The translations under genes and the position numbers were made by a program. A DNA stretch of 64,000 nt from Roridomyces roridus (lineage: Eukaryota; Basidiomycota; Agaricomycetes; Agaricales; Mycenaceae): assembly GCA_029378245.1 (NCBI GenBank), contig JARKIF010000010.1, positions 1,984,001-2,048,000 on the forward strand. Direction: 5' to 3'. Position 1 is the stretch's first letter; each line of letters starts with the position of its first letter. The notes under the pieces were generated by a model that saw only the letters and a program-made list of their open reading frames with translations, had not been told where the DNA came from and made no database searches. Positions 1,133 to 38,877 of this stretch are shown in pieces.

Positions 1133-2608
1133 GTGATGCCTCACGCTGCTAATGGTGCCATGCACCCACGGATGCATCTTCACGATCGCTCCGGCGCTCT
1201 TGCTGTCCGCCAAAGAGGCGGCTTCACTACCACCATCTTCGCGACTGTTATAACGACTTTCGGAGGCGGCGGCGAAAACCCGGGCCATCGAACTCCAAAT
1301 AACGATCCTCCTACTGTCACGCAGGAACAGCCACCTCCTGCCACTCCGAATACGTCTACAACACCTACACCACCTACGACTACTCCGCCGACACCGACAC
1401 CGACATCGCCTTCCTCATCCACCACACGCCCATCGGTAACTAGCAGCAGTCCTTCCAATACTCCACCGGCTCCAATAGTATCGAGCGTCGCTCATTCCTC
1501 TCTCCCCATCACACATATAGCGAGCAGCCTAACAACTATCGCGTTAATCGGCGTTTCGCCGACCCACTCCTCCTCCCCCTCCTCCCTCCCAAGTGCTTCC
1601 GCCCTCCCCGACTCGTCAGACACCTCTTCTTCCCCCTCCTCTTCGCTCCCCGGATTGCTCTCCGCTCCCTCGGCATCTTCCTCCCCACCACCAGCCTCCA
1701 GCTCATCCAATACCCCAAAACACGCAGCCGTAGCAGCAGGCATCATCATCCCCATATTCCTGCTCCTCCTCCTCGCGAGCATCCTCATGTGGTTTCGTCG
1801 TCGTCGTCGGCAGCGTGAGGCGCAGTGGGAGACGGATGCTGAGGTGGCGAAGGAGGCGGCGGCGTGGAAACCACCGATGGTGTCGGTATCTGTCGCTGCT
1901 GCTGCCAGTGCCACCGACCGATCGCGTCATATGTCGAGCAGGACCAGTACCGCCTCCGAATCGCATGCGTACAGCCATTCTGCGGTGTCGCATCCGTATT
2001 CGAGTGGTTGGCAGACCAAGACGATTTCTCCGTTTAACGCTCGGTCGGCTTATGTGCCTGGGTTGTCGGAGGATGAGGGGGATTCTGAGGGCGAGGATGA
2101 GGGCGAGGGTGAGGGTGAGGTTGAGGGTGAAGGCATGGATTTGGGCGCTCAACAAATCCCCATAGCCGGAGTCTCAGCATGGTCTGCGAGAGTGCCTGCT
2201 TTCGACGGCCTAGGGTTCGACACGTCCATGTTCTCAATGCCATTCCACGCTGCAGGCTCTACTTCCCCTACTGCCTCAGTCTCGCATGAACAGGAGGACG
2301 GCCTGGGAGAGGATGGGAGCACCATACAGGATGTCGACTTCGAACCCTCCGAATCGGACGAAAAAACGGCTGCTGCTGATCCGGACCCAAAGTGGGCATC
2401 CGAACCTCCGCCCACTCCCCACACACCCGCCACGCCGGCTACCCCAGCTACGTTCAGAACAGGCACAGGCACTCCAGCCCTCTCGCGTGCGCCGACGTTC
2501 CGCACGGTTGCGTCGGCACCGCCGGGGTATGCGCGGCCGTTGCCGGAGCTGCCTGTGCCGGTGCCGATTCCCATGCCGGAGTTGATACATGTTGAATTTG
2601 GGCGGTAG
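1133..2608 (+). CDS. single-p​ass membrane protein, subfamily A, with C-terminal PPGY
   Basis: A single exon encodes 491 aa. Residues about 60-190 are Pro/Ser/Thr-rich and likely O-glycosylated. One membrane span lies at about 199-220 (IIIPIFLLLLLASILMWF), followed by RRRRR as a stop-transfer signal, so the C-terminus should be cytoplasmic. The tail holds an acidic Glu/Gly repeat (about 313-340), then SRAPTFRTVAS and APPGYARPLPELP, with PPGY at 463-466. The span and SRAPTFRT box match the minus-strand genes at 8373 and 11727. No classical signal peptide is seen at the first Met, so an upstream exon may be missing. PPxY is the known ligand of WW domains such as those of Rsp5/Nedd4 ligases; its use here is inferred. 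Confidence 0.72.
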   Translation: MMPHAANGAMHPRMHLHDRSGALAVRQRGGFTTTIFATVITTFGGGGENPGHRTPNNDPPTVTQEQPPPATPNTSTTPTPPTTTPPTPTPTSPSSSTTRPSVTSSSPSNTPPAPIVSSVAHSSLPITHIASSLTTIALIGVSPTHSSSPSSLPSASALPDSSDTSSSPSSSLPGLLSAPSASSSPPPASSSSNTPKHAAVAAGIIIPIFLLLLLASILMWFRRRRRQREAQWETDAEVAKEAAAWKPPMVSVSVAAAASATDRSRHMSSRTSTASESHAYSHSAVSHPYSSGWQTKTISPFNARSAYVPGLSEDEGDSEGEDEGEGEGEVEGEGMDLGAQQIPIAGVSAWSARVPAFDGLGFDTSMFSMPFHAAGSTSPTASVSHEQEDGLGEDGSTIQDVDFEPSESDEKTAAADPDPKWASEPPPTPHTPATPATPATFRTGTGTPALSRAPTFRTVASAPPGYARPLPELPVPVPIPMPELIHVEFGR

Positions 2609-3181
2609 ACTGGCTATGGGCAGGCTGGATACTTATTGGATACAATACGTACACAGATACCCTTTCGTTTTTGATACCTCAAGTTCTTCTTTCCCCGCTA
2701 GTTATTTTATTCCCCGCCGACTCACACCTTGACACGCCCACTATATACTACCCACCACACACCAACGTTCCGCACGGCGCATCAGCACCGTGCCGATCCC
2801 TACGCCAGAGCCGAAACACGTGCCGAGTTGATAAGTCTACGTCGAGCTTGGGCGGTAGATTGGCTAAACGTATAATTGCCTCCATACACAGAATCGTGAA
2901 TCTGTGATGAGAGAAGGTCTTTCATTGGTCCCTAAGATGAACCGTGTACTTGGCCCTCCGCCAGGGTACGATTTTCCCATCCTGCTGTTGATCCTTCGAA
3001 CTGCTGACCTTCTCTCATTGGTCTCTAAAATGAACCGTGTACTTAGCCTCCGCAAGGGTACAATTTTCCCTTCCTACTCTGATCCTTCGCATTCGTGTAG
3101 TCTTGGGGACGAAATCGTGTAAAACTGCCATGCACTGACTCGAAGTATGCTGCTGATTCCATCCATCCTCCTCCCACCCGA
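2609..3181. other. 3' flank of the first gene; source of a duplicated segment
   Basis: No gene is seen. The stretch from about 2575 to 2950 recurs with small changes at 6735-7085, including the phrase cagataccctttcgttttt. Two direct copies of ttggtccctaagatgaacc-like sequence lie at about 2922 and 3014. The second half probably holds the promoter of the seven-TM gene. Confidence 0.5.
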
Positions 3182-4363
3182 ATGTCGAACAGTACAGACT
3201 CCATTAACGTTGTCTTGCCAGGGGCTACTTTACAAAGTACTTTCCTGCAACTGTACATGAATGGACTCTACTCCGGCCTTTTCTTTGTGACACTCTACGG
3301 AATGGGTAAGTAACCCATCTACGTTGACTGGTATTATTTCGAACGCTGAAACGGAACAGTGTTCAAAAGGCCGATCTACCGCACCAACCCAGCGCTGCTC
3401 TCCGCACTGGTCATGATGTACATCCTCTCCACCGTGCACGTTATTGGGGATTGGATACTCCTGGAGCTGGGCGGCGGGTTTTTGGGATCGGGTCCGCTGT
3501 GGATAACGATCATGAGTTCTGTGGCGTTTACTCTGAACACACTTATCGCGGACCTCGTACTGGTGCGTGCGACTGTTCGTTCGAATTCTCCCGGGACTGA
3601 GCCAAGTTCCTGAAGATATGGAGATGCTGGAAAATCTGGAACAACAATTGGGTTATAGTAACCCTGCCTATCCTCTGTACCCTCACAGGCGCAGGTAAGT
3701 CACCCACTTTCAATCTTTCCCACAGAAGGAACATTCTGAACGACGGCGTTAAATCCCACCTAGCACTCGGCTTCAAATTCACACAAGAAACCCTATTCGT
3801 CCTACGCAACCCCGACACCAACGCTACCTACGTCGACTTTCTCACACCGTACATCAGCCTATCGCTCACGACGACCTGCCTCGCCACGGCTCTAATCATC
3901 TACCGCATTATTATGATGAGCAACCCAACTACCCGGAGTGCTCGCGGTTACATGCGGGTAATTGAGATCGTAGTGGAATCGGCGCTGTTGTATTTGGTCG
4001 CGCTGGCCGTGTACTTGCGGTACCTCGTGAGCGTAGACGGGTTCTTGACCGAATGGTACCCAAAAGCGGTCGTTGCGCAGATGACGGTGAGATTCTCTCT
4101 CTTTTCCTTTCTTTTATGTAAGCCGGTGTTGATGAACTGAACCATGACAGGGAATCGCACCGACCTTGATAGTCGCGCGAGTTACGTTTGGTCTTGCACG
4201 CCCTGAAGAGACGTGGAAGGGGAACATGTCGAGTCTCCGTTTCCGTGGTGGTTCGAATGTGACCCAACAACCAAACACTATTGCTCTAACTGCGCTTTCC
4301 AACAACAATTCAAGTGCCAGCAAGCCAGCGTCTATGCGAAGTATCAGTGGCGGGAGTATATAG
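3182..4363 (+). CDS. seven-TM-like integral membrane protein, five exons
   Basis: Exons at 3182-3305, 3360-3562, 3607-3694, 3764-4086 and 4151-4363 join in phase to give 316 aa. The protein is hydrophobic throughout, with about seven membrane spans: LYSGLFFVTLYGM, LVMMYILSTVHVIG, a loop with RCWKIW before WVIVTLPILC, the SLSLTTTCLATALIIYRI span, and SALLYLVALAVYLRYL. The last span runs into ARVTFGLARPEETW, followed by a Ser/Asn-rich tail. This layout is common in uncharacterised Agaricomycete seven-TM proteins. It is not an STE3-type pheromone receptor as far as can be judged. Exon 5 is duplicated at 7108-7317. Substrate or ligand cannot be inferred. Confidence 0.8.
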
Positions 4364-4717: not shown

Positions 4718-4783
4718 TCATCCTACAGTGGGCAAAACGGGTATCTGCGGCAGCGGGCGCGAGTACTCGGGGAGCGGCTCGGG
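4718..4783 (-). pseudogene. truncated 3' end of a subfamily A membrane protein gene
   Basis: On the minus strand this stretch reads about 21 codons, EPLPEYSRPLPQIPVLPT-like, then TGA. It matches base for base, with few changes, the last codons of the intact gene at 8373-9545. The match stops abruptly near 4783, so the rest of this copy has been lost. A short hairpin lies just beyond the breakpoint, then the B gene at 4902. Confidence 0.65.
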
Positions 4784-4794
4784 GATAAAAAGAA

Positions 4795-4819
4795 CGATTC
4801 CTAAACGGGTTAGGAATCG
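4795..4819. repeat. perfect 9-bp hairpin at a duplication breakpoint
   Basis: The arms cgattccta (4795-4803) and taggaatcg (4811-4819) are exact reverse complements around a 7-nt loop. The hairpin lies where the similarity between the two duplicated segments ends. It may be a scar of the rearrangement or simply a terminator-like stem. Confidence 0.5.
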
Positions 4820-4901
4820 TAATTTTCTCGCCTATGTATTGCATTTGCCAAGAAGGGACTGGAGGGGGTATTTCAGTGCACCTAGCCAACCACCGAGCCT
4901 A

Positions 4902-6587
4902 CTACTGGGTATAATTCGGCGGCAAGTCAGCACGCGCACTCATAGCAGCCTCGAGCTGCGCCATGCGTTCCGCCATAACCCGGAGCTGCATCTCAGTTGC
5001 AGGATCCGGGCCAGGAGGACGTGACCCGCTCGATCCACCGTCGGCACCGGTGCTTGTCGGGACGCTGGTACCAGCGCCCGTACCGCTCCCACTGATGCTC
5101 GCTGCGACCGACGTGCTGGGCCTATGTCGGTTGTTATTCCACGACAGCGACCCAACGTCGATGTGTGGTTCTTTGTCCGGCAAGCGGGACGACAAAGGAA
5201 GCGACGAGGTGGATCCCGCGCCCGACTTCTCCCACATGGCAACCTGCGACGCCACTACCGCCTGCGGGATGGGCCTGTCGAGAGTAAGCGTCGAGCCCTG
5301 GTGCGTCAGCTCCATCCTCTCAGCAGCGGGGGGAGTGACAGCTTGAACTGGGGAAGGAGAGGTCGCTGGAGGTACATGTTCGAAACGCAGCCGGAAGCGC
5401 CTGCGCATACACCATAGGGTCAGTGCGATGAGTGCAAGAGCAACTAGCCCGCCGACGACACCGCCTGCGATGGCTGCCGTCGCCGTTGAGCGTGGTGCGG
5501 CTGAGGTTTCGGCGGGCTTGGCACTGGAGGAAGCGCTGGGGATAGAGATGGATGTTCCGGTGCTCGGGATAGCACCGCTGGGAGGCGGGGTGCCTGAGCC
5601 CGAGGTCCCACTGGAGAAACCCGATTTGGTAAGGCTCCCGCCGCTCGTGGTCCCTCCCGAAGCACTCGCCGCTGGCGCAGTCGCTGTTGGGCCGCCGCTC
5701 GGGAAAAAACCCGATTTGGTAGGGCTCCCGCCGCTCGTGGTTCCTCCCGAAGCACCCGCCGCTGGCACAGTCGCTGTTGGTGCGCCGCTCGGGAACAATA
5801 CGGCCCCACTGGGGATGAATGGCCCTACGGAAGCTGATGCACCTACACCCGCGAGACCGCCTTGGGCTTGCTGGAGGGTGCCTCAGTATCGCCGCCTGCT
5901 CAAAAAAATGACACATACGCCGGGGATTACGACGGACGCTGCGGCTTTTTGGAATGCAGCAAGACTGTTTGGTCCGGGCTTAATGTTGATTCCACCAACC
6001 ATTCCTTTAGTTGAGGTTAGTCAAGTAAGCACAGGGATGGAATTTCGTGCTGACCGGAGTTACAGTGAGGGCTTGGCAGCAGTTGTTTGCAGTAGAACCA
6101 TATTGCTGCGGAGAGTGTGTTCAATGCCTTGCTCTAGAGGACAGAAATGTACTCGTACGTGTGGTGTCGTCGGTGATCATCAAATCCCAAGAGGGCGGCG
6201 GAGACAAGGTGGTGCTTCCCTCGATGAGGATCCAACCCGAGTCGAAGCCACCTTGGAGCGGCGTGCATGGCGCGTTGAACGAAGACTGCGTCACCGAATG
6301 GTTCCCGGGACTGTGGGTGCGTATTCAGCAACGGACTGGAACGTCGTGAACTATGCTTACGACCCCGTCCATTCGAACGTGATGACTGAGCCGTTGGCAG
6401 CATTGAGGGTGTTGGGAATGAATTGGAAGATTCCTCCAGCGGTGCTCGCCTCCCCGCCGACCATGACGATCTACGCATGTGCGAGGAACATAAATGAGGA
6501 CGGGGGATGGACACTAGCACGTACCTGATTCTGGGCCGCTGCCACGGCAGCTGCGGCCAGAGTAGCGAAGATGCTGAATAGTTGCAT
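4902..6587 (-). CDS. membrane-anchored cupredoxin with subfamily B tail, six exons
   Basis: Exons at 6587-6525, 6470-6361, 6310-6159, 6105-6055, 6004-5919 and 5870-4902 agree in phase and give 476 aa. The signal peptide is MQLFSIFATLAAAAVAAAQ. Residues 22-150 are a cupredoxin-like domain of the fungal extracellular serine-rich type, with His62 in PGNHSV, then PIWFYC (Cys114), His122 and Met127 in CNSGM: the usual His-Cys-His-Met type 1 copper ligands. A Gly/Ser/Thr-rich stalk with two 30-residue repeats follows. A membrane span lies at about 286-308 (GGVVGGLVALALIALTLW) with MRRR after it. The tail carries STLTLDRPIPQAVVASQVAM and ends DLPPNYTQ. From TSISIPS onward it is nearly identical to the gene at 37624-38877, whose ectodomain is unrelated. 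Confidence 0.85.
5617..5796. repeat. 90-bp tandem repeat, two copies, in the stalk of the cupredoxin gene
   Basis: Two adjacent 90-bp units start at aaacccgatttggta (5617 and 5707). They differ at a few bases and encode two 30-residue stalk units of the kind PTATAPAASASGGTTSGG. The unit length keeps frame, so stalk length can vary without breaking the protein. Confidence 0.75.
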
Positions 6588-7107
6588 TTTCGGGGGAGCA
6601 GAGGAAAGGAGGAGCGAGACAAGATGCGGGACCCTCGACTTCTTAGGAAGGGCGTTTTATCAGCGTCACCCCACTAGAATAGAACATGGGACCAGTGAGG
6701 GTAGCAACTGGGTAGAGTGCGGTCTTACGGTTCGGCTCCGGAATTGATACACGTTGAGTTGGGCGGTAGACTGGGCAGGCTGGATACTTATTCGATACAA
6801 TATGCACGTACACAGATACCCTTTCGTTTTTGATACATCTTCTTCTTTCCGGGTTACATTTTATCCCCCGCCCTCACCCCCCACGCCCTTTACACCCACT
6901 ACCCACTACACACCAGACGCGCCACACCGGCTACGTCTGGAACCCCGCCTTCGGACCTGCGCCGAGTTGATAAGTCTACGTCGAGCTTGGGGGGTAGATT
7001 GGCTGAACATATAATTGCCTCCATACACAGCATCGTGAATCTGTGATGAGAGAAGGTCTTTCAATTGGTCCCTAAAATGAACCGTTTAATGAACTGAACC
7101 ATGGCAG

Positions 7108-7317
7108 GGAATCGCACCGACCTTGATCGTCGCGCGCGTTACCTTTGGTCTTGCCCACCCCGAGGAGACGTGGAAGGGGACGATGTCGAGTCTCCGCTTC
7201 CGTGGTGGTTCGAATGTGAACCAACAACCAAACACTAATGCCTTGACTGGGCTTTCCAACAATTCAAGTGCCAGCAAGCCAGCGTCTATGCGAAGTATCA
7301 GTGGCGGGAGTATATAA
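7108..7317 (+). pseudogene. orphan last exon of the seven-TM gene
   Basis: After an intact acceptor (ggcag) this stretch reads GIAPTLIVARVTFGLAHPEE and on to SMRSISGGSI and stop. It is nearly the same as exon 5 of the gene at 3182-4363, with Arg to His and Thr to Asn type changes. The first four exons are absent, so it cannot encode the membrane protein. The open frame is still intact, which suggests a recent duplication. Confidence 0.8.
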
Positions 7318-7426
7318 CTGTACGATCGGAGGCAACGGATGTACACCGATCACAAAGATGTTTGGATAATCAGGGCGGCGGGGCATTTGATGATAGCTGT
7401 GGCGTTTGTCCAATGGAGAGCTCGAG

Positions 7427-8372: not shown

Positions 8373-9545
8373 TCATGCCACGGTGGGCAAAAGGGGTATC
8401 GGCGGCAGCGGGCGCGAGTACTCGGGGAGCGGCTCTCCCGAGGAAGCGAACGTTCGGAATGTAGGTGCCCGGGAGACGGTACGTACGCGGGTCTCAACCG
8501 CTGTGCCAGTTGGTGTCTCGGTCGGCGTGATGCTGGTGGGACCTTGATCGAACAGCGGCACCTCCACATCCCTCGTAGCTAGCTGCGCTTTTTCTGGATC
8601 GTGGAGACGCCTGGGAGAAAGAGGGGGTTCCTGCGCCGTGGGTAGAAGGAATACTTCGGAACCCGTGGCGGATATGGGTGTAGTCGGGGAAGCGTCTGTC
8701 GTGTGGACGGATAAACCGGCGCCATGCTCGGTGGACGACGGCGCTCCGTGAGCCGAGGTCGCTGGCGATGGGAGGTGCTGACGCCATTGAGCGATCGCGA
8801 GCCTTTTGTCCGGATCCGTTTCTGGCCCACCACGCCGGCGCCGGCGATAGAGCGTGATGAGAATGCTCCCGAGGAGTAGGAGCAGGAATATAGGGACGAC
8901 CGTGGCAACTACGGTCACAGGTACGTGGGTGGGCGGATCGGATGATCCCTGTACGGTTGGCGCAGATGTCGAGGAAGGGATTGTGGATGAAGAGGCAACG
9001 GACGGGACGAAAAAGACGGTATTGCCACTGACGTCCGTGCTACTCGAGGCCGACGTCATACTCTGGCCCGGGCTGGATCGTGGCGACGACGGCACGGGCG
9101 CAGAGCTGGAGGGCGGCGGAGAATGAGAGCTAGAGTGACTGGGTGAAGGGGGTGGCGGGGGCGCAGAGCTGGCCTTTATCGGCGGAAAGGAATCAGAAAT
9201 AGTGGTTCCAGGTGGTGATGGTGGTGGTGGTGAACTTGGTGGTGAACTTGGTGATGAGGATGTTGGTGGTGGTGGTGGTGGTTGTGGTTGTGATGGTGGT
9301 GCGCTAATGGACAAAGGCGGAGAAGGAATAAAGGTCGGTGGGTCCGGTTGAAAGGTATCCGTATCCGTGGTTTGAGTGAATGGTATGGCGTCTCGGGCAG
9401 TGAGACGGCGTCGGGATCTGAAAGGATACGTTCGCCCCGCATGCCCAGTCACCACCGCTCGAAGAGGGCCCGACTCCGAGCTGAGGATGGACGAATGGGC
9501 CACCAATGTCGCAAGTTCCGTCATTGGGATGGGCTTCAGCGGCAT
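8373..9545 (-). CDS. single-pass membrane protein, subfamily A, LPEY tail
   Basis: The gene encodes 390 aa from the Met of MPLKPIP, which aligns with MAVQPVP of the paralogue at 11727. An intron with donor gtgcgtgtc and acceptor attag directly precedes this start, so an upstream exon is possible. The outside part is Pro/Ser-rich, with (ggt)n-type DNA at 9205-9300 on the plus strand giving a proline stalk. GTTISDSFPPIKASSAP lies in the stalk and is conserved between A genes. The span is VVPIFLLLLLGSILITLY followed by RRRRR. The tail contains ATGSEVFLLPT, DPEK, SRAPTFRTFAS and GEPLPEYSRPLPPIPLLP. LPxY is a weaker WW-domain ligand. Its neighbour at 10441 runs the other way, so the two share one upstream region. 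Confidence 0.78.
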   Translation of the reverse strand: MPLKPIPMTELATLVAHSSILSSESGPLRAVVTGHAGRTYPFRSRRRLTARDAIPFTQTTDTDTFQPDPPTFIPSPPLSISAPPSQPQPPPPPPTSSSPSSPPSSPPPPSPPGTTISDSFPPIKASSAPPPPPSPSHSSSHSPPPSSSAPVPSSPRSSPGQSMTSASSSTDVSGNTVFFVPSVASSSTIPSSTSAPTVQGSSDPPTHVPVTVVATVVPIFLLLLLGSILITLYRRRRRGGPETDPDKRLAIAQWRQHLPSPATSAHGAPSSTEHGAGLSVHTTDASPTTPISATGSEVFLLPTAQEPPLSPRRLHDPEKAQLATRDVEVPLFDQGPTSITPTETPTGTAVETRVRTVSRAPTFRTFASSGEPLPEYSRPLPPIPLLPTVA

Positions 9546-10440
9546 CCTAATGATATTTTGCATTAGCAGACAAATGTGTCATATACTCAGCGACACGCAC
9601 CGTCCGTCCTCCCAAGAGAAGTGTATGAATACCCTCCACAATCCAGAGAAAGAAAGAACGACTGAGGTCAGAAACAAGGAGCGTCGGTGGTGGGGGAGGC
9701 AAGGTATGAATCTTCCAGGAAGAGATGGACGATGACCGGTTGACCAGTGACAGTTGATCACTCCATTCGAAACGACATCGCACGGACTTCTTGGATTTGT
9801 TGATCGGAAATCGCAGAGGCGCTGAAAGGCAGTGGCGGGATGGAGATCGCACGGCGAGCGTGGGCAGAACCGCCAGTTTGATCATCCAGATGGCAGAGAT
9901 CTCTAGCTTCCTCCCATTGGAACGCCAATTGAACACCAATCCATGAATCTGACAGGTCGCAGGGAAGTGTTGCAGTGCGGTGTGGAGTTCTCACAGCCTC
10001 GAAGGCATGATGGCCGACGTAAAGCGAACGAAGGAGGATTGCTGAGGAGACGAGGAGGAGAAGAGGAGAAGAGGAGAAAATGTGACAGGTCACTTGCAGG
10101 TCACAGCGGTCCTGTGGCGTGATCCCATCAGGCCACGGAGATTGCCGTAACCCAGACATAGCTCCAACATAGCTCATCCAGCGAGGCAGGACAACTTTTA
10201 CCAAAGTTAGGAACGAGGGGCCGGATCACCTAGGTCAGTACTTAACTTGACCTGGCCACTGATAAGTAACTGACAGCAGCGTCCCTCCAGTCGACTTTGC
10301 ATTTTCCGTAGCTGCAACTCTTGGTCGTTCGTGACAAGAAAACATTCCACCATCCTGTATCGGGTGGATAAAAGCCGTCGGTGCGAGATCCTATACATCA
10401 TTTAATCCATAGCTCACGATTCTGGGGACACCAAGGAGCC
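9546..10440. promoter_or_regulatory. divergent intergenic region between an A gene and a B gene
   Basis: No gene is seen. The minus-strand side has a CT-rich stretch (ctcagtcgttctttctttctctgg) and an intron just before the A start. Related CT-rich stretches and introns sit at 12890-12960 and 18150-18200 before the other A genes. The plus-strand side leads to the B gene at 10441. A bidirectional promoter is likely but not proven. Confidence 0.45.
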
Positions 10441-11097
10441 ATGTCCCATTCTCATCATGCTGGACAAACTTCAATACAAGGAACGGTCATCGCCCCGAAT
10501 CCTAGCGATGGTTTCACGCCCGTCGGAGTATCTTCTGGGATTGCATTTTCAGCCAGCGCGACTGGCACCGTGAGCGTATCGCTCTCAACCAGCAATCCAC
10601 CTATCCAGGGCCCTACCGACATCCCCATCACAAGTAGCAACGCACCACTCCAGAGCACTCCCGTCATCCCCATCACAAGTAACAACTCCAGCCGACACGC
10701 AACGCCCATCGGTCCCATCGTGGGCGGTGCAATCGGAGGGATCGTCGCCCTGCTTCTTCTCGGAGGTCTCATCCTCTGGTGCAGACGAAGACGAGCGCGT
10801 TTCAACCTTCGTTCCGAACGGTTGCCTCCCACACCCCCGTTGGGCGAGTTGCGCTCAGGATCGAGGCTTGCGCTCGACAGGCCTGCCCTACCAGCAGTCA
10901 TTGAAAGCCAGGCAGCGATGTTGGAGAAGGCCAACGCATTGGCTGGCTCGAGAGTCCCAGCGGCACCGGATCCGATCTCGAGCTCCAATCCCGTCACGGA
11001 GACGCAATTTCGCGCCATGGCTGACCGTCTGGCAGTTGTGGAGGCGGCGTTGACTGCGCGGGATGAAGACTTGCCGCCAAATTATACGCCGGGTTAG
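10441..11097 (+). CDS. single-pass membrane protein, subfamily B, short ectodomain
   Basis: A single exon encodes 218 aa from MSHSHHAGQ. About 80 residues of Ser/Thr/Ile repeats (PITSSNAPLQSTPVIPITSN) precede the span GPIVGGAIGGIVALLLLGGL and then CRRRRARF. The tail has the B boxes LALDRPALPAVIESQAAMLE and RLAVVEAALTARDED, and ends LPPNYTPG. There is no signal peptide and no folded ectodomain, so it may insert as a signal-anchor protein or lack an upstream exon. An in-frame Met 60 bases earlier (10381) is an alternative start. Confidence 0.78.
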   Translation: MSHSHHAGQTSIQGTVIAPNPSDGFTPVGVSSGIAFSASATGTVSVSLSTSNPPIQGPTDIPITSSNAPLQSTPVIPITSNNSSRHATPIGPIVGGAIGGIVALLLLGGLILWCRRRRARFNLRSERLPPTPPLGELRSGSRLALDRPALPAVIESQAAMLEKANALAGSRVPAAPDPISSSNPVTETQFRAMADRLAVVEAALTARDEDLPPNYTPG

Positions 11098-11726: not shown

Positions 11727-12842
11727 TTAAACAGCGCACAATGTGGGTATCTGCGGCACCGGGGGCGGGGGCAAGTACTCCGGCAGTGGCTCCCCGGCAG
11801 ACTCGGAAGCGAAGGTTCGGAATGTTGGTGCGCGCGAGACGCTGCCGCGGCGGGTATCTGCCGTCGTCTCGGTGGATGTGGGACTGATGGCGGACAAAAA
11901 TCCTGAGTCAGGATCTCCGAGAGATGGGTGGCCCTTTTCCGGATCGTCTTGAGTGAGACCCAGAGGAAACTCCTTGGTCGGACTGTCCGCTCTGGGCAGA
12001 AGAAATGCTTCTGAGCCCGTAGCCGAAGAGGGTGAGGTCGAGATGGCATCCGTCACGGGGGCAGATAGGCGATTGCTAGCGGATAGAGCAGCGTGCAATG
12101 AAGCTGAGCTCGTCGACGGCTCAAGCCGTTCGGCATCCGCAGTGTCTGCATATCGCCCTGCGCGACTTCGGCGACGACGGCGATATAGAGTGATGAGAAT
12201 GCTCGCGAGCAGGAGCAAGAGAAATATCGGGACGATGGTGCCAACTACGATTGAGACAGGAATTTGGTTGGGTGGGTTGGATGACCCATGTACTGGCGAA
12301 AACGTAGCAGAGAGCGTGGACGAGGAGGAAGGAGAGGGCAGGGTCAGAATCGTGTTAAGGATGCCGTTTGCGCTACGTGTACTGGTTGGCGATGCCTGAC
12401 TCCGGCTGGACTCTGACTCCGGCTGCGCAGTGGCAGAGCTCGAAGGCGACGATGAGTCAGAGTGGCTAGACGGAGGGGCTTGTTTGGACGCGGAGCTGGT
12501 TTGTATCAGCGGAAAAGAATGAAAGATAGTGGTTCCAGAAGACGATGCTGGTGGCGTGCTCGTCGGTGGTGGCGGGGGCGGAGTGGAAGTCGGCGGGCTG
12601 ACTATTGGAGTTGTAGAAAGTCCCGATTCGGCGTGGGTGGGATCGCCGACCGGGGGATCGAAGATGCCAGACAAAAGGTGGCTAACTCCATTCAAAATCC
12701 CGCTTTCCAGTTGTCGAACGCCAAGATAGCGTTGGGTACTGGAACAAGGAGTACATCCTGGATGCGCCGTCAACACCTCTTCAATGCGGTGCGATTCAGA
12801 TGCATCGATACTAGTCAACGAAGGGACTGGCTGGACCGCCAT
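11727..12842 (-). CDS. single-pass membrane protein, subfamily A, LPEY tail
   Basis: The gene encodes 371 aa from MAVQPVPSLTS. A conserved N-terminal segment (ESHRIEEVLTAHPG, RQLESGILNGV) is followed by a Pro/Ser/Thr stalk with GTTIFHSFPLIQTSSAS. The span TIVPIFLLLLLASILITLY comes next, then RRRRR. The cytoplasmic part has ERLEPSTSSASLHAALSASN, ATGSEAFLLPR, DDPEK, SVSRAPTFRTFASES and GEPLPEYLPPPPVPQIP. It is the intact relative of the broken copy at 16993-18077. An intron with donor gtgcgtgtc lies just upstream; with acceptor aatatcag it would join in frame to a hydrophobic, CT-rich-coded segment (LTSVVLCFFVFFLG), but no Met is found for that exon. Confidence 0.78.
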   Translation of the reverse strand: MAVQPVPSLTSIDASESHRIEEVLTAHPGCTPCSSTQRYLGVRQLESGILNGVSHLLSGIFDPPVGDPTHAESGLSTTPIVSPPTSTPPPPPPTSTPPASSSGTTIFHSFPLIQTSSASKQAPPSSHSDSSSPSSSATAQPESESSRSQASPTSTRSANGILNTILTLPSPSSSSTLSATFSPVHGSSNPPNQIPVSIVVGTIVPIFLLLLLASILITLYRRRRRSRAGRYADTADAERLEPSTSSASLHAALSASNRLSAPVTDAISTSPSSATGSEAFLLPRADSPTKEFPLGLTQDDPEKGHPSLGDPDSGFLSAISPTSTETTADTRRGSVSRAPTFRTFASESAGEPLPEYLPPPPVPQIPTLCAV

Positions 12843-27529: not shown

Positions 27530-28399
27530 GTGAACGGGCACTTAGCCGTACTCCCATCGGCGTCTGCTCCCCTCAATGTAGCTGCTGGATGCGGCGATTC
27601 CTGTCTGGCGAACTCCGATTCTTCGAGTGATGGTGACTCGGAGTATGATGCTGACCGACACGGGTATGCCAAATCTAGGAGAAGTTTAATAGAATCGGTT
27701 GCAAAGGCTCTCGCCTCCCCTAAATTCGGCACCGCCCCTTCGTTTACAATTCCTGCAACGACCATATCCGTCTCCGGCGAAAGCACATCTTTCGCCTCCA
27801 GTGAGTCGGTCGCACCTTCATCCTCCAGCACATCAACAACTCTTTTAACTCATTCGAATACACCCTCTTTGTCCACCACATCGGCAACTTTCTTGACTCA
27901 GTCGAATACGGCCGCGCCCACGGCCTCTGCGCTGAATCATAGCTCTGCCTCCCACAAATCATCCACATCGCTTATCGTGGGAGGCCTCGTTGGGGGCATC
28001 TTAGTACTCTCACTCATCGGGCTGACGTTGTGGTGGACTCGCCGGCGCTTTCGTCTTCGCTTCCAGCGCATCACCGCACGTCCCACAGCCCCAGTCCCAG
28101 CCGACCAAGTTGGCGATATCCGATCATCAACGACGCTCACGGCTGATCGGCCCGCGCCGCCAGCGGTGATAGCCGTACAAGCCGCGATGTTGGAAAAAGC
28201 CAACGCATCCACGTCGTCGCTCGTCTCCGGTCCCTCGGGGCCTACCTCAGCTTCTTCGAGTGGTAGCACTCGACGATCAGCCCCGGCCACGGAGACGCAA
28301 CTACGCGCCGTGTTGGAACGGCTTGCGCTGGTGGAGTCAGCGTTGACGGCCAGGGGTGAAACTGGCGATGATTTACCGCCGAATTATACTCCGCAGTGA
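27530..28399 (+). CDS. single-pass membrane protein, subfamily B (TADRP type)
   Basis: The continuous frame encodes 289 aa. It is the closest relative of the gene at 15782. By analogy there is probably an intron at 27499-27545 (gtacgt..cttag), with exon 1 ending GPLGRYSR. That exon lacks the MHG start of its relative (aag instead of atg) but is open upstream to Met codons at 27142 and earlier. The ectodomain is PSASAPLNVAAGCGDSC then Ser/Thr-rich. The span is LIVGGLVGGILVLSLIGLTL, then WWTRRRFRLRF. The tail has SSTTLTADRPAPPAVIAVQA and RLALVESALTARGETGDD, and ends LPPNYTPQ. The exact N-terminus is unresolved. Confidence 0.7.
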   Translation: MNGHLAVLPSASAPLNVAAGCGDSCLANSDSSSDGDSEYDADRHGYAKSRRSLIESVAKALASPKFGTAPSFTIPATTISVSGESTSFASSESVAPSSSSTSTTLLTHSNTPSLSTTSATFLTQSNTAAPTASALNHSSASHKSSTSLIVGGLVGGILVLSLIGLTLWWTRRRFRLRFQRITARPTAPVPADQVGDIRSSTTLTADRPAPPAVIAVQAAMLEKANASTSSLVSGPSGPTSASSSGSTRRSAPATETQLRAVLERLALVESALTARGETGDDLPPNYTPQ

Positions 28400-29107
28400 C
28401 GTCTCTTTGGACTTTTGATGGACAACAGTTTTTTTTGGCAATAGAACGAATTTTACTTACTTGGCATCTCGTTGTGAGGATAACGACCTCAATTGACGCT
28501 TCATATTGATTCAATGATTGCAACTTCGTCTGTCCCATCTTGTTCCCTCGCAGGCTGGACGCCCCTCTATTGCCCTCATAAGCTTCTCCGGCGGCCCGAC
28601 ATGTGTTATTGTCGCAGCAATCTCATCTTCTGTGCTTCTGTTTGCTCCCGTGAACCTTCATCGCTTCCTTCCGACGTATAACGGGAATCTACGGCGAGTG
28701 TGCGACTGGCGGCGCATCAGCACAAGATTCGTGCCTCAAGGTGCCTTGTACAATTTTACTTGGTACGAAGGAGGTATTTCACACGGGAGCCCCTCTATTG
28801 TGGCCCTACTCCAGGGACCAACCTCCAGCGCAGCTTGACGTTCCCTCGGATTCAAATGGCAAGTTGGAGACAAGGACTGCTGCCTTCGTACGCGCCCTCT
28901 TTCACTGAAAACAAGATCTCTTACTCTCTACCAGAGACGTCGGCCAGACCCATGCACATGCGGCAGTGTCCGTTCATAGGCCTGCCTACCGATTCAAACG
29001 AATACGTGATCCACACTGGGCTGGCTTAAGGCTGAGTCGATACTCTGCGTGTACGTTTTCCTCATTCTCGTTGATTATCCGTGATTCACAAGCCGGATAA
29101 CAAACAG
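28400..29107. other. spacer module and intron upstream of a broken B gene
   Basis: It shares blocks with 24790-25486: cccatcttgttccctcgcagg (28538), gcatcagcacaagatt (28714), gcaagttggagacaagg (28859), caagatctcttactctctac (28912), and the exon 1 end gtcgatactctgcgt followed by gtacgt at 29051. No independent gene is seen. Confidence 0.5.
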
Positions 29108-30161
29108 CCGCCTTCAGCAAAGTTCATTCCCTCTTCCTTTCCATCCTCTTCATCGCTACCCTACTTGCCGGTGCTGCCGCCGAGGACGGAATCGTGGTGA
29201 ACGCGCCCACCGCCGCGCAACCCGCCCGCGAGTGCGAGCCATTCGAAATAACTTGGACAGGCGGATCCGCTCCATATAAGATTCAGGTTATACGCCCCAT
29301 GACCACCCCACAGTCTCTGGGTGAGATCGTGCTTATTGCCGACCATGTGACTGGAACGTCACACACATGGATTGTTGCCTTTGATGCCGGAGTTTCGCTG
29401 GTATTCACCCTCGAGGACGCCATCGGTGGGGAGAACCTTGGTGGGGGATCCGCGTCTGATCCCTTCATCGTGGCCCCTGGAGCTGGGAGCTCTTGCCTGC
29501 CGGGCGTCGGCAGTGCCAGCCAGAGTCCCACATCAATCACCTCCAATGCAGTCTCGCGAGCACCCGTGCCTTCGAGTCCCTCGAGCATCGCTCCGGACTC
29601 GCTAACGCCCTCACCATCGGGTTTTTCACCTTCGCCTTCGCTAACGTCCTCCCCTTCGAGTTTTTCTCTCTCCTCTGGTGCCAAAAGTCCCTCGATCAGC
29701 GCTCCGGACTCGCTAACGCCCTCACCACCGGGTTCCTCGCTTTCGCCAACGTCCTCCCCTTCGAGTTTCTCACTCTCCCACCCGCCGGGCTCCACCACCA
29801 GCCCTTCCCCGGTCGCGCGCAAACGGAAATCTGCCGTGGGGCCGATCATAGGCGGCGTACTCGGCAGCAGCGTAGTCGCTCTACTCCTCGTGGCGTGGTG
29901 CTGTCTCCACAGGCGGTTCCGAGTCGAGCGTCTTATCCTGAAACCTTCGGGGTACCGTCGCAGGCCGCGATGTTGCGGAGAGCGAATGCTTCGAGTCCGG
30001 CACTCCCGGCACCGGAGATGCCCTCTGTCGGCATCGCGAACCCCAATCCTGCCGCGGAGACCCAGCTCCAAGCCGTGGTCGCACGGCTTGCCTTGGTGGA
30101 GGCGGCGTTGACTGCGAGGGATGCCGGTGAAGATTTGCCGCCAGATTACAGCCCCGGTTAA
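29108..30161 (+). pseudogene. frameshifted subfamily B gene, CEPFEITWTGG ectodomain
   Basis: The frame from the acceptor at 29107 reads AFSKVHSLFLSILFIATLLA (signal-like, with GTT where Met should be), then VNAPTAAQPARECEPFEIT and an enlarged Ser/Pro stalk with two SLTPSPxGxS-type blocks. The span is GPIIGGVLGSSVVALLLVAW. At about 29945-29960 roughly 75 bases that encode the LALDRPAPPAVIE box are missing and the frame changes. The rest of the tail (SQAAMLRRANAS, RLALVEAALTARDAGED, LPPDYSPG) is readable in another frame up to the stop at 30161. Confidence 0.75.
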
Positions 30162-30361
30162 GTAAACAATGCGGTTGGAATTGTCAGACGAGGGTGGGAT
30201 GAGATGGGTGGGACTTCGGGGTTCGGGCGATGCTTGACAATAACTTCTCATATCCACGTTGGAATCCTGAATTCTTATTAGTTTGTTTTGACCTGCAGAA
30301 AGTGGTCTACATAAAGAAGTGGTCTAACCCCATCTATCGGATCACATCCTCGCACCATACT

Positions 30362-30562
30362 CACACGGCACCGCCAGCGATCACAGCCGTACAAGCCGCG
30401 ATGTTGGAAAAAGTCAACACATCCACATCGTGGCTCGTCTCCGGTCCCTCGGGCCCTAGCTCATCTTAGCACTCGACAATCAGCACCTGCGACTGAGTTC
30501 GAATGGCTTGCGCTGGTGGAAGCGGAGGGGTGAAGATCTACCGCCGCATTAATAATTATACT
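30362..30562 (+). pseudogene. fragment of a TADRP-type B tail
   Basis: It reads PPAITAVQAAMLEKVNTSTS and a Ser/Gly stretch, then stops, followed out of frame by remnants of RLALVEA and of LPP.NYTP. It matches 28160-28395. There is no span or ectodomain. It follows a copy of the 3' flank repeat (30245-30345). Confidence 0.7.
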
Positions 30563-31228
30563 CCGAGCTGCAATTGCGCAGTTTGCCGTGCGTAGCACGT
30601 ATGTTGGCGGAGGTCACGGAGCCACGGTCTGTCGGGACTACATTGCACGTGAGCGCGTCATGATCGGGCTTTACCGGATCACGCGTCATGTTTGCCCCTG
30701 TCACATAAACGTCACGTCTTGTTCTTCGCGCCCACGCCCAACCCAAGCCCAACCCACGCCAATCCAGCCAGGCATCCGCGTCAGTGCTTCCGGCCCCCAG
30801 GATACTAGATACTTGGCGACGCACGGATGCGTACCGGGAAACGACAAGAACATCCGGCTGTGGCGCATCACAAGAATCTGGATTGTCGTCTAGACTCTAC
30901 TTATGGTACACACCTGGACATGAAGGCTTCTTAGGCTGCTCTTTCTTCCACCGCTTTACTAAGAGCCCCGAGGCCCAACATGTCTTCACCTGAGCCTGCC
31001 GCTGGAGAGCATTCGGTTTTCGGTTGCAACCCGACAACGCCTTTCTTACGGAGAGTTTGTGGCGGACGGACATTGGCACGCACATGTCTCGGCATCCGTC
31101 TGTGACTCTTCCTGCCCGACTGAGGGGATACGGGCTTTGACTTGGCTAAAGTTTAGACCAGACTCCCCCTGTATGTTTTCCTGGACAAGTTCTGATAGTA
31201 CAAGGCTCACAATCTACCTCGCGAATAG
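30563..31228. other. spacer module upstream of a broken B gene
   Basis: This is a weaker copy of the B spacer: tgtggcgcatcacaagaatctggattgtcg (30862) and an exon 1-like end gactccccct followed by gtatgt (31157-31170), with the acceptor cgaatag at 31222-31228. No separate gene is supported. Confidence 0.45.
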
Positions 31229-32415
31229 CCGCTTTCAGCAAAATACACTCCGTCTTCGTTATCGCCATCTTCGTCCCTTTCCTCTTCGCCAGTGCTGCTG
31301 CCGAGAAGTTACAAATCACCAACGCGCCCACGGCTGCCACTCCCCTCCTCGAGTGCGACCCGACCGAGATAAAATGGGTGGGCGGATCGCCTCCATACAT
31401 TGCTTTGGCCGTCGATCACCACGAGGGCGTCATTTGCTCGATTCGAAGGCTTGACTGGATTATCGCAGACATGGATTGTGAATGCGTGTTGGCTTTCGTT
31501 GATGCGGAGTTCGATCCGCGAGTATTCCGTTCAATAGGTAAGATTTACACGATGGCCGTGAGGCCTTCTGGGTACAAGCTCGTGGGGAATTCCCCCACTC
31601 TAGCTACAGTATATATACTAAATAGCATGCTGCGGCGCAGTCCGTAGCCCGTAGCCCGTAGTCTACGCAGCCCCGGCACAGTCCCGAATATTGTCCGTCG
31701 GGCATGTGGCCGAATGCCGCTCATATTCCAACAATGCGACTGCCAGTGCCTCCTTGTATTTCTTCGTCCAGGACGCCGCCAACAGTACAGCCAACTCTGC
31801 GGACTTCAATGTCACGGGAAATGATTCCTGTGTGCAATCTAGCACAACAAGCTCGGCTCCTTCTAATTCAACCGGCGGAGCCCCTGAGCCGACAGGCACT
31901 GGCAGCACCGGTAGGAGCTCCAACCATTCTCCCAACAAACCGAAATCCGTCCCCGGGCCAATCGTAGGGGGCGTACTGGGCGGCCTGCTCGCTCTGCTCA
32001 TTCTGTGGTGGTGCATGTGCAAGTGCTGGCGACTCCGCACTCGAGCCCGAGAGCGTCGTCTCCTGAGACCCTCGACATACCCAATTGCACCGCTAGATGA
32101 TGAACAAGCGGACGATGGAGATGTACTCTCAGCTCAGCCAGCCTCGACACTTGCACGTGCCCCGTCAGCATTGCATCCGCAGGCAGCCATGTTGGGAAAA
32201 GCGACCCCGGCCATCACTCTGCGCACACCCGACATGACTGGTGCCGATGCCGCAACTCGGGTTCGAACTTCCCTGCCACGGCAATTCCTGTTACGGCGAC
32301 GCAGTTCCGTGCCATGGTTGAGCGTCTAGCACTCGTGGAGGCGGCTTTGACTGCCCGCGATGAAGACTTGCCGCCAAACTACAGCCCCGGGCTAAATATC
32401 GTAGACGAGGGTTGA
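31229..32415 (+). pseudogene. degenerate subfamily B gene
   Basis: It begins AFSKIHSVFVIAIFVPFLFA (Met replaced by ATA), then QITNAPTAATP and ECDPTEIKWVGG. The ectodomain then changes frame near 31440. An extra 150 bp at 31535-31690 has no match in paralogues. A later frame gives the span GPIVGGVLGGLLALLILWWC, CRLRTRARER-like basic sequence and a poor copy of the tail box. Another frame change near 32260 precedes RLALVEAALTARDED and LPPNYSPG. Several independent breaks make it non-functional. Confidence 0.7.
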
Positions 32416-32524
32416 ATGAGAGGGATGGGATAAGGACGCGGATGATGCTATCATAAATTTTCATGTCGATTCTACTTGGTGTGGGAGATGGAATTCTGAT
32501 ACAGAGGAAGGCGTGGGCTGCAAT

Positions 32525-34064: not shown

Positions 34065-35090
34065 ATGCACGGCAACATCAAGATGTTCCCCCTCCTAGCA
34101 ATCCTCAGCCTCATCGGCCCTTCCAGAGCTCAGATCGTCCCTGTGGTCGATACACCAACGAGCGCACGTCAATGCGAGTCATTCGACGTTATCTGGAACG
34201 GCGGAGTCACTCCCTACATACTCAGCATCCTACCCGAAGCGGGGGGCAATCCCATCGCTACATTCACCAACATATCGGATGAGGAGCAAGGTTGGGTTGT
34301 CAACGCGTCTATAGGCGCATCGCTCTTGTTCCAAGTCGAGGATGGGAATGGCGTCGTTGGGTGGTCGCATGCGTTTAAGGTGGTTGCTGGGAAGGGCATT
34401 GGGTGCATCGTCGAGGCGTCACCCAGTAGTACGGCGCCGGCGGGAACGGCGTCACACACCAGTCTCAGCTCAAGCCATCCAATTTCCGGCTCCAACTTAG
34501 ACTCACCTTCAACAACCCCCGCTGCGACGCCCTCCCCTTCCAACACCTCGACCACGAGTCCGGACACAGCCACATCCGCGACCTCTCCCCGACATAAACC
34601 CCCCATCGCCCCAATCGTAGGGGGCGTAGTGGGAGGAATCACCGTCCTCTTCTTAGGCCTCGTACCTCTGATCTGGTGGTGCAGACGCCGGCGCCCTCGC
34701 CCATCTAGTCTTGCCTTCTCACACACAACGGCAGAAATCCCGTTCATCACAGCAGAACGCGAGATCCGCTTGGAGCCCAACCGACCTGGGTTACCGGCTG
34801 TACTGGCTTTACAAGAACCGATGTTGGAGAAGGCTGGCGGCAGTCAGGGCACTTCTTCGGCTTCCCTCATTCCGCCGGCTTCTGCACCGGGACACGGGAC
34901 GGACACAGAGACAGAGACAGAGACAGAGGCAGAGACAGAGACAGATGCGCCAAACACTGGCCACCCGCCTCCCGATCCCCTCGCAGAGGCGCAAGCTCAA
35001 CTGCAGGCCGTCGTCGAGCGAGTTGCGATGCTAGAGGCGGTGTTGAGTACGCATCAAGCGGATTTGCCGCCGGGTTATACTCCATCTTGA
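34065..35090 (+). CDS. membrane protein, subfamily B, CESFDVIWNGG ectodomain, PPGY tail
   Basis: A single exon encodes 341 aa from MHGNIKMFPLLAILSLIG (signal peptide; the MHG start recalls exon 1 of other B genes). The ectodomain PTSARQCESFDVIWNGG..TPYIL runs to about residue 120, followed by a Ser/Thr stalk. The span is APIVGGVVGGITVLFLGLVP, then WWCRRRRPRP. The tail has a divergent box RPGLPAVLALQEPMLEKAGG, a Thr/Glu repeat encoded by (gacaga)n, QLQAVVERVAMLEAVLSTHQ and an end PPGYTPS. It has no intron where others do. It is the most divergent intact B member of the plus strand. Confidence 0.78.
   Translation: MHGNIKMFPLLAILSLIGPSRAQIVPVVDTPTSARQCESFDVIWNGGVTPYILSILPEAGGNPIATFTNISDEEQGWVVNASIGASLLFQVEDGNGVVGWSHAFKVVAGKGIGCIVEASPSSTAPAGTASHTSLSSSHPISGSNLDSPSTTPAATPSPSNTSTTSPDTATSATSPRHKPPIAPIVGGVVGGITVLFLGLVPLIWWCRRRRPRPSSLAFSHTTAEIPFITAEREIRLEPNRPGLPAVLALQEPMLEKAGGSQGTSSASLIPPASAPGHGTDTETETETEAETETDAPNTGHPPPDPLAEAQAQLQAVVERVAMLEAVLSTHQADLPPGYTPS
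34911..34949 (+). repeat. gacaga hexanucleotide repeat in a coding tail
   Basis: About six units of acagag/acagagg encode alternating Thr-Glu in the cytoplasmic tail of the gene at 34065. It is multiple-of-three, so length changes would keep frame. Confidence 0.8.
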
Positions 35091-36956: not shown

Positions 36957-37623
36957 TCTGGTATGCCAGAGTAAACAAAGACGAGGCGAAATATACCGTT
37001 TCAAATTCCCCGTCAAAAAGAGCCGCTCCTCGCCAGCGCATGGCTTTCAATCGCCCCTTGCGGCCTCGGTATTCAATATTTAAGATTGGAGTTCTATGGC
37101 TAGAGTTCATCACATGCTATTGGAACGTGCAAGATTCAATTGGCTGTTACGAAAAGAACGCACCGAGGCCGGGGCGGCAATGGCGCAGAGTCGGGGAAAT
37201 GGGATCACGACCCGCTGGCAGGTCCGCTAAAGATATGTGGACCAAGTCAATGACAGTCATCCACGAGGGACTTGAGAAGATGAGAGAGGGTCCGACTGAG
37301 CCATGTGAATGAGGCAAGATGAGGGCAGGAAGCAAGAGTGAAAATGATTGACAGCTGATGCGCTGACATCATTGACTCGGATCGAACTCGGCTCCGCGGC
37401 CAACTGGAACGCAAGTTCCCCTGTCACAATGAGGCTTCAGCCAGGCGCAGAAGTCTTCTCATCTGACGAAAAGTGCCTTGGACCTCTCAACTCGAGTTTG
37501 GAGCTGCATTTACCATCAATGGAAGTTGAGTGGGAAAGTTTATGGATTCTCGCATCCTTATTGTATCGTCCACAGGAATGGCCTGGAACCGAATATTCCA
37601 TTGCAAACCAACCACCGAGCCTA
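36957..37623. other. intergenic; no gene seen
   Basis: The left part is the upstream region of the phosphatase gene and the right part the 3' flank of the CFEM gene. Short open frames (37040-37312 plus) have no recognisable content. The last 20 bases (ccaaccaccgagcc) also precede the stop of the cupredoxin gene at 4902. Confidence 0.5.
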
Positions 37624-38877
37624 CTACTGGGTATAATTCGGCGGCAAATCAGCACGCGTACTAATAGCCGCCTCGAGCTGCGCCACGCGTTCCGCCATAA
37701 CGCGGAGCTGCATCTCAGTTGCAGGATCCGGGCGCGAAGGACGCGACCCGCTCGACCCGCCGTCGGCACTGGTGCTTGTCGGGACGCTGGTACCAGCGCC
37801 CGTGCCACTCCCACTGGCACTCGCGGAGAAAGACGTGCTGGGCCTATGTTGGGTGTTATTCCACATCAACGACCCAACGTCGATGTGTGGTTCTTTGTCA
37901 GGAACGCGGGACAGGCCTGTAGCTGAAGACAAAGGAAGCGACGAGGTGGATCCCAAGCCCGACTTTTCCCACATTGCAACCTGCGACGCCACCACCGCCT
38001 GCGGGATGGGCCGGTCGAGAGTAAGCGTCGAGCCCTGGTGTGTCTGCTCCATCCTCTCAGCAACAGGGGGAGTGCCAGCTGGAACTGGGGAAGGAGAGGT
38101 TGCTGGAGGTACACGTTCGACACGGAGCCGGAAGCGCCCGCGCATACACCATAGGGTCAGTGCGATGAGTGCAAGAGCAACTAGCCCGCCGACGACGCCG
38201 CCTGCGATGGCTGCCGTCGCCGTTGAGTGTGGTGCGGCTGAGGTTTCGCCGGGCTTGGCACTGGAGAAAGCGCTGGGGATAGAGATGGACGTCCTGGATG
38301 CAGACGAGGGGCCTATTGCACGTGAGTAGAAACATCAGAATTCTTATGTTGTATTGCGCACCTGAAGTCGGAGATGATATTGATAACGAGGATGTGATGT
38401 CAGGCGGAGTGGGGATTGGATTGGAAAAGACCATGCTCGCAGTCGAGGGGTCTTCAGGGACTGTGGATGCTATCGACCGCGGATAAGAACAACATTGGGA
38501 ATTGCAGACTTCATTACACACCTCCAGCATCTTGTCTTGGATCGAGGAGAGAATCTAGTCACATCAGACTCGGAGGCCGGGCAATTAGCAAGGGAGCGAC
38601 CCACGAGTGGCTATGGCGCACTGCGCACCAAGGAACATCTGTGCGTTGGGGAGGTCGTTCGGACAAGCTGAAGACACACAGTCCACGACGGCCACGACGA
38701 ATCTCTCGCTGAGGCACAGACAGGCGCCATCCCTGTATCGACGAATTAATCAAGTAGCGCCAGCTCAGCCAGCGTAGGAACGTACGAAGGGTTGCAGTTC
38801 GTGACCTCAAAATCGTTGCTCGCACCAGCGCACTTCTGGACGCACGGTGAAGAAGCGGTGGTGCGGTCGGAAGGCAT
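37624..38877 (-). CDS. CFEM-domain membrane protein with subfamily B tail
   Basis: Exons at 38877-38786, 38732-38629, 38508-38362 and 38312-37624 agree in phase and give 343 aa. Residues 10-70 are a CFEM domain: SPCVQKCAGAS, VTNCNPSDGACLCLSE, DCVSSACPNDLP and NSQCC provide the Cys set. A Ser/Thr/Pro stalk follows. From TSISIPS on, the span GGVVGGLVALALIALTLW and the tail (STLTLDRPIPQAVVASQVAM, ending DLPPNYTQ) are nearly identical to the cupredoxin gene at 4902. No signal peptide is seen at this Met, and an in-frame stop lies just upstream after an acceptor-like ctatag, so a leader exon is probably missing. CFEM domains bind haem or act as surface receptors in other fungi. Confidence 0.7.

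Follow-up and report, generated by a model that had tools for sequence, protein, structure and literature searches.

Why should one membrane span and tail be joined to several unrelated outside domains, and what might the common tail do for proteins that otherwise share so little? The question is raised by a tandem array between 1.1 and 38.9 kb of a 64,000-nucleotide stretch (the window, contig C2:1984001-2048000) of the 90.8 Mb assembly of Roridomyces roridus (Mycenaceae). The array contains ten genes of one family, termed B, in which span and tail are open, alongside three broken B copies or fragments, and three open genes plus one broken copy of a second family, termed A. A sequence-only reading had described about nine B genes and three intact A genes, with one span and tail across the B copies beneath several unrelated outsides. 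The array, the three A genes and the shared tail beneath unrelated outsides were all borne out, the last by the ten-tail alignment, Pfam and a tail tree, whereas the B count rises to ten. Judging from their sequences, the B proteins may be receptors or adaptors that cross the membrane once, carry a PY motif and can change ectodomains, and in which the tail would provide a shared ubiquitin and endocytosis output; we give this reading a probability of about one half.

The set of B and A copies was concordant between stop-to-stop reading frames and DNA repeat families (20 of 34 families viewed). At least four of the window proteins have NCBI entries (P0001, P0002, P0006 and P0007), all named "hypothetical", with P0007 described in UniRef as CFEM-containing. 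Contig C489, treated here as a second haplotype (haplotype B), carries its own array in unchanged order, with DNA 71-97% identical to the window, hence the array is not an artefact of one contig, a concern that had accompanied the sequence-only reading. At its end (~2.096-2.111 Mb), C2 repeats C489 in inverted and nearly identical form (98.1-99.7% over the three stretches examined), and C489 is also repeated on several short contigs; all of these were excluded from copy counts. The inverted copy (~2096-2111 kb) is likely an assembly fold-back or a haplotype joined in the wrong place. Genome searches with array queries returned 94, 99 and 30 matches (the 30 being for the A family), of which a minority were read; many simply repeat C489 on further contigs or match weakly over the span alone.

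The constancy of the B tail is striking in its extent. All ten window tails are alignable throughout, with 20 invariant columns, and follow the same order: a glycine-rich span and an arginine-rich stretch lead to box 1 (LDRPxPPAVIxSQAAMLEK), which is followed by a short box resembling a helix (RxMAERxAxLEAAxxAR) and finally by LPPxY. By sequence, each aligned copy has a single hydrophobic span followed by arginine-rich residues, and the tail is presumably cytosolic. The pattern was kept when seven of the ten window tails were joined by five dispersed loci and one haplotype B copy. In a larger set of 28 tails (10 from the window, 8 from haplotype B, 5 dispersed and 5 from Mycena), selected as open tails from the genome and protein search matches, PPxY stands at or near the C-terminus in every row, and lies no more than 15 residues from the stop or protein end in 25. 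Eight of the 154 alignment columns are fully invariant, and its two prolines and tyrosine account for three of them. Box 1 contains a lysine in 26 of these 28 tails, making it a candidate ubiquitin acceptor.

This PY motif was absent from the sequence-only reading, and supplies a specific candidate for the shared output, namely a WW-domain ubiquitin ligase. PPxY and LPxY are WW-domain ligands, and changing the tyrosine of the LPSY motif in PRRG4 lowers binding to NEDD4 and other WW proteins, according to an excerpt of PMC3764795. Six-frame matches place three WW domains followed by a HECT domain on one strand at C223, and likewise at C480; a third set on C18 has WW scores equal to those at C223, and is perhaps its allele. 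Hence the combination of a WW-ligand motif and WW-HECT loci leads us to read the tail as a putative docking and ubiquitylation cassette.

The conserved boxes other than the PY motif would suit wall-integrity or nutrient sensors of the Wsc/Mid2 kind, with the linker as a stiff glycosylated spring, the ectodomain touching the wall, box 1 or the helix signalling, and the PY motif setting turnover only. Wsc and Mid2 cell-wall sensors have a Ser/Thr-rich single-pass layout, which the open B copies share through their Ser/Thr-rich linkers and single hydrophobic spans. However, the tails differ, a Pfam scan of ten window reading frames to E 1 recovered neither WSC nor Mid2, and the PY motif is invariant as much as any box, leaving this an unlikely explanation.

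The clearest proof of module exchange is the breakpoint shared by Bm1 and Bm2, which have cupredoxin-like and CFEM ectodomains respectively. From positions 5555 and 38292 to just beyond the stop, 629 of 702 alignment columns are identical (90%). The match has a sharp 5' edge a little ahead of the span, some 20 bases into the final exon of the NCBI model of Bm2, and upstream the cupredoxin-like and CFEM sequences do not match, with no further alignment found at E 1e-3 using 7-base words. The pair gives a natural record of ectodomain exchange, captured at one breakpoint between two genes. Across the tree of the 28 tails, in which the long branches of C57 and M. pura make their positions unsure, the four ectodomain labels need at least seven changes, when the minimum possible is three. 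The starred branches of this tree force at least two changes for the cupredoxin-like label, at least two for CFEM, and one each for the others.

The changing outsides differ in how far they can be identified. The CFEM domain of Bm2 scores 30.8 bits against PF05730 (cut-off 22) using hand-spliced exons, and 25.7 bits on the NCBI model P0007. A profile of six CFEM domains, all of which retain the eight cysteines and the aspartate of DxxCLC, matches the hemophore Csa2 (4y7s) at E 1.1e-4. We take this aspartate column to be the haem-binding aspartate of Rbt5 and Pga7. The conserved CFEM aspartate is required for haem binding in both proteins, as stated in the part of PMC4183699 consulted. The cupredoxin-like paralogue P0026 is named "Cupredoxin" in UniRef and has weak plastocyanin matches (E 0.12 and 0.17), while NCBIfam pseudoazurin and halocyanin matches to this domain are all sub-threshold. 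A His, Cys, His, Met pattern, corresponding to the copper ligands of cupredoxins, is seen in Bm1 and P0026, with the methionine replaced in C90; an AlphaFold2 model of the full P0026, made from the single sequence, was too poor to use (mean pLDDT 40.4). B5, B6, B8, B9 and B10 carry a CEPFNITWTGG domain that fits no Pfam family at E <= 1, for which AlphaFold2 with a nine-row alignment predicts a beta-sandwich of nine strands (mean pLDDT 83.7). This predicted fold places among Ig-, FnIII- and SKICH-type beta-sandwiches, with no Foldseek match at E <= 0.001. A Kre9/KNH identity (PF10342) for the domain was rejected, there being no such Pfam match up to E 1. Outside the membrane, only Ser/Thr-rich sequence is readable in B1, B2, B3, B4 and B7.

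The sequence-only reading had proposed to look for clustering and to compare strains for presence or absence and for rates of change in ectodomain and tail; clustering is supported, and comparison of the two haplotypes shows both copies present in one only and ectodomains evolving faster than tails. C489 lacks about 3.3 kb holding Bm1 (4781-8134) and about 3.5 kb holding B9 (30292-33843). B4 has no counterpart in the C489 stretch compared, and used as a query found nothing on C489 above 72% identity; parts of the C489 array, such as 89.4-93.5 and 95.8-97.3 kb, lie outside this comparison. Hence three B copies were seen in one haplotype only. The 90% identical direct repeats around Bm1 fit its presence or absence through unequal recombination. 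A gene for a putative multi-span membrane protein is present as repeated fragments at window positions 3601-4305 and 7086-7493, flanking Bm1, and at C489:75862-76977. Allelic substitution rates were pooled over B6, B10 and B8, the last only up to its frameshift, as the ectodomain alignments of the Ser/Thr-rich copies and A2 were mostly poor or crossed frame changes. The beta-sandwich domain had a dN of 0.151 and an omega (dN/dS) of 0.64 (bootstrap 0.42-0.95), the span and tail a dN of 0.020 and an omega of 0.26 (0.11-0.54), and the linker an omega of 0.69. The 7.5-fold difference in dN was reached in none of 5000 permutations.

The same comparison bears on whether selection maintains diversity among the beta-sandwich copies as polymorphic recognition proteins of the cell surface, with the tail as a common effector or down-regulator. 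Fast domain change in single genes (omega 0.96 in B6 and 0.81 in B8) and the lack of counterparts for Bm1, B4 and B9 would be expected of such a repertoire, yet the pooled omega is below one, that of the B10 domain is 0.28, B9 is broken anyway, and only two haplotypes were compared. Furthermore, hyperdivergence limited to the array is not supported, as the left flank is likewise 89-94% identical between haplotypes (the right flank being 97%), meaning haplotype divergence is unusable as evidence of self/non-self recognition. Another contig pair (L001/L002) shows 99.8% identity, but may represent a single haplotype assembled twice, and is not a genome-wide baseline. Hence we regard a recognition repertoire as quite unlikely. 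A largely neutral history, in which surface glycoproteins multiply in tandem and decay, their tails being kept similar by gene conversion and only anchoring or turnover being in common, would explain the several broken copies, the B2 and B3 ectodomain frames that do not align between haplotypes, and the low tail dS, but is improbable given purifying selection on the tails (omega 0.26) and conservation of the cassette at dispersed loci and in five Mycena species.

Elsewhere in the R. roridus genome, dispersed cassettes have CFEM (C301), cupredoxin-like (C57, C90 and C474) and beta-sandwich (C390) ectodomains, such that one tail bears several outside types in this species rather than one fixed ectodomain. 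At C90:619 kb and C474:74 kb (L064 and L065), a signal-peptide-like start runs straight into the span with almost no ectodomain; L064 stops after box 1 and L065 shifts frame there, and both, which may be broken, were excluded from the tail set. A first homology search found only proteins from the window's own contig, and in further protein searches the cassette turned up in Mycena capillaripes, M. vulgaris, M. leptocephala, M. rebaudengoi and M. pura. Two profile searches each scored about 8000 candidates, which were required to share exact words. Among these, the tail was clear outside R. roridus only in Mycena, and the readable ectodomain was always CFEM, although absence elsewhere means little in a word-based search of this size. 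Hence the expectation that tail-positive proteins would carry many ectodomain types in clusters holds within R. roridus, but only CFEM was seen in other species. CFEM domains exceeding the Pfam cut-off accompany the tail in four Mycena species (P0023 from M. vulgaris, P0025, P0028 and P0029); P0009 and P0010 score 18.2 and 21.8 bits, and M. capillaripes P0008 has only the first half of the motif, with no Pfam match. Weak profile hits with a different ectodomain came from M. galericulata (P0032), M. latifolia (P0018) and Favolaschia (P0013). These form another single-pass family, with a conserved NITIDDTN...WHDG ectodomain; they end in motifs like (L/P/Q)P-(P/A)-Y, namely QPPPY, QPPAY and LPPPY respectively, but were found via the profile. 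Searches of open-licence full text yielded no publication recognised as treating the B family.

The A family has tails unrelated in sequence to those of B, yet a PY-type motif is present in all seven read from the 30 genome matches: LPEY in six (A2, A3, three haplotype B copies and C2:1.708 Mb), and PPGY in A1. The allelic omega of A2 is 0.59 in the ectodomain and 0.31 in the tail, the same direction as in the pooled B copies; allelic pairs of A1 and A3 were not found by motif search. Beyond the array, a span at window positions 53820-54065 (+) weakly matches that of the A family (E 4.7e-4, 40% identity).

The receptor or adaptor reading can be set out as a mechanism. Firstly, the ectodomain would pick the partner, which for CFEM is probably haem, for the cupredoxin-like domain perhaps copper, and for the fast-evolving beta-sandwich another partner. 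Secondly, LPPxY would dock the WW domains of a Nedd4/Rsp5-type ubiquitin ligase. Thirdly, the docked ligase would ubiquitylate the B protein or its partner, leading to endocytosis or vacuolar sorting. Fourthly, recombination in the array would join new ectodomains to the 3' cassette, producing new receptors. The A family has an unrelated tail with a motif of this kind. The sequence-only reading had proposed surface sensors or recognition proteins with a common intracellular output; the shared span and tail and the varied outsides agree with this, while wall, nutrient or non-self sensing is conjectural.

Several observations weigh against this mechanism. The PY motif is not terminal in B4, B5 and P0008, where 57, 32 and about 180 further residues follow; it is gone from M. 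vulgaris P0009 (PPNC) and P0010 and from M. leptocephala P0031, all outside the 28 rows, as well as from the open frame at the R. roridus C135 locus and the window fragment at about 30.5 kb. Lysine is scarce throughout (1.5% of ectodomains and 1.2% of tails), hence only the conserved box-1 position carries weight, and this ectodomain control rules out a lysine-poor tail as a special design. The cupredoxin-like domain of Bm1 scores 14.2 bits against PF00127, under the cut-off of 21.2, and a four-row profile of such domains matched no solved structure. Like dN, dS is lower in the tail (0.077) than in the domain (0.237), such that gene conversion or homogenisation accounts for part of the contrast between them, and B10 alone has no contrast in omega (0.28 and 0.31). 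Several copies also lack a recognised signal peptide: none is obvious by eye in B1, B2 and B4 as predicted (P0003-P0005), no predictor having been used; the ATG that B5 uses is missing from B6, B8 and B9; and the start of B3 (15736-16650) and the signal peptide of the CFEM copy were looked for and not found.

Table 1. Array features, in window coordinates
Feature	Position	Strand	Basis
A1, Ser/Thr/Pro-rich single-pass protein, tail PPGY	1133..2608	+	ORF, tail alignment
Direct repeat copy 1, left of cupredoxin-like gene	4129..4305	.	90% identical to 7086-7262; haplotype B stretch aligns to both
Bm1, cupredoxin-like ectodomain, span, tail, PPNY; absent from haplotype B	4902..6587	-	six exons by hand, tail alignment, Pfam
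Exchanged 3' cassette (linker end, span, tail, stop)	4902..5555	-	90% identical to 37624-38292
Direct repeat copy 2, right of cupredoxin-like gene	7086..7262	.	repeat comparison
A2, single-pass, tail LPEY; open frame, start not fixed	8373..9578	-	ORF, tail alignment
B1, Ser/Thr-rich, span, tail, PPNY	10441..11097	+	ORF, tail alignment; P0003
A3, single-pass, tail LPEY; open frame, start not fixed	11727..12905	-	ORF, tail alignment
B2, Ser/Thr-rich, span, tail, PPNY	14148..14903	+	ORF, tail alignment; P0005
B3, Ser/Thr-rich, span, tail, PPNY; start not located	15736..16650	+	ORF, tail alignment
A4, broken (frameshifted) A copy; open copy in haplotype B	16993..18167	-	ORFs; L074
B4, Ser/Thr-rich, span, tail, PPNY and 57 more residues; no haplotype B allele found	19103..20035	+	tail alignment; P0004
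B5, signal-peptide-like start, beta-sandwich, span, tail, PPNY and 32 more residues	20955..21890	+	ORF, tail alignment
B6, beta-sandwich, span, tail, PPDY; start in upstream exon (NCBI model)	25462..26430	+	ORF, tail alignment; P0001
B7, Ser/Thr-rich, span, tail, PPNY; start not fixed	27512..28399	+	ORF, tail alignment
B8, beta-sandwich; tail broken by deletion and frameshift; open in haplotype B	29101..30161	+	haplotype comparison
B tail fragment	30203..30530	+	repeat/frame reading
B9, broken beta-sandwich copy; absent from haplotype B	31216..32418	+	haplotype comparison
B10, signal-peptide-like start, beta-sandwich, span, tail, PPGY	34065..35090	+	ORF, tail alignment
Bm2, CFEM, linker, span, tail, PPNY	37624..38877	-	P0007, tail alignment, Pfam
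Exchanged 3' cassette, partner of 4902-5555	37624..38292	-	DNA alignment

Two other matches were seen in the window. A phosphoesterase family protein (PF04185, 70 bits) lies within the array at 35842-36495 (-), and a weak leucine-rich-repeat match, under the cut-off, at 61266-62567 (+).

If the tail recruits a ubiquitin ligase, the B proteins would have a plug-in design, in which the binding target changes while the internalisation route stays, and many sensors or receptors may share a single way of being switched off or taken up. The repertoires of these putative receptors differ between two haplotypes of one mushroom. The plug-in design would also make testable the entry of CFEM-bound haem by endocytosis dependent on the endosomal sorting complex required for transport (ESCRT). 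The available sections of PMC9635878 report that haem use in Candida needs ESCRT, and argue for an extra transmembrane protein, identified as Frp1 and Frp2. The most complete version of this scheme is a modular system in which one 3' cassette is recombined with unrelated ectodomains, giving haem, copper and fast-changing-partner receptors internalised by one Nedd4/Rsp5-type ligase, with the CFEM form a self-contained endocytic haem receptor bearing an endocytic signal missing from GPI-anchored CFEM proteins, and with the beta-sandwich form acting as a variable recognition repertoire that differs between haplotypes; as a whole, this is quite doubtful.

Parts of this design have precedents. Bm2 resembles the CFEM hemophores Rbt5, Pga7 and Csa2 in its above-cut-off CFEM domain, eight cysteines and aspartate position, but has a span and PY tail rather than a GPI anchor or secretion, whereas the Candida CFEM proteins described in the portion of PMC9635878 consulted are GPI-anchored or secreted. 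Its sequence suggests a receptor that binds haem and has its own endocytic signal. Yeast membrane adaptors recruit Rsp5 through PY-type motifs (excerpts of PMC2810449 and PMC5578492), and the B proteins are like Bsd2, Tre1/2, Ear1 and Ssh4 in being membrane proteins with such a motif, PPXY or LPXY in the yeast cases (PMC2810449, in part). These adaptors differ from the B proteins in fold, Ear1 and Ssh4 having SPRY domains, and the excerpts of PMC2810449 do not mention ectodomain exchange. Close in layout are Commissureless (Comm), PRRG and Rcr, short single-pass proteins with a cytosolic L/PPxY-type motif, to which PRRG adds a small extracellular domain. In the text available from PMC3764795 and PMC5578492, this motif of PRRG4 and Comm binds Nedd4, the PY motifs of Rcr1 bind Rsp5, and Comm, PRRG4 and Rcr control the surface levels of other proteins. 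No sequence relation to these proteins was found, ten reading frames of the window giving no Rcr match (PF12273) at E 1 or below, and unlike them the B array has one tail combined with four ectodomain types and duplicated. PY-motif single-pass adaptors are known in outline, and it is the exchangeable ectodomains on one cassette that are new.

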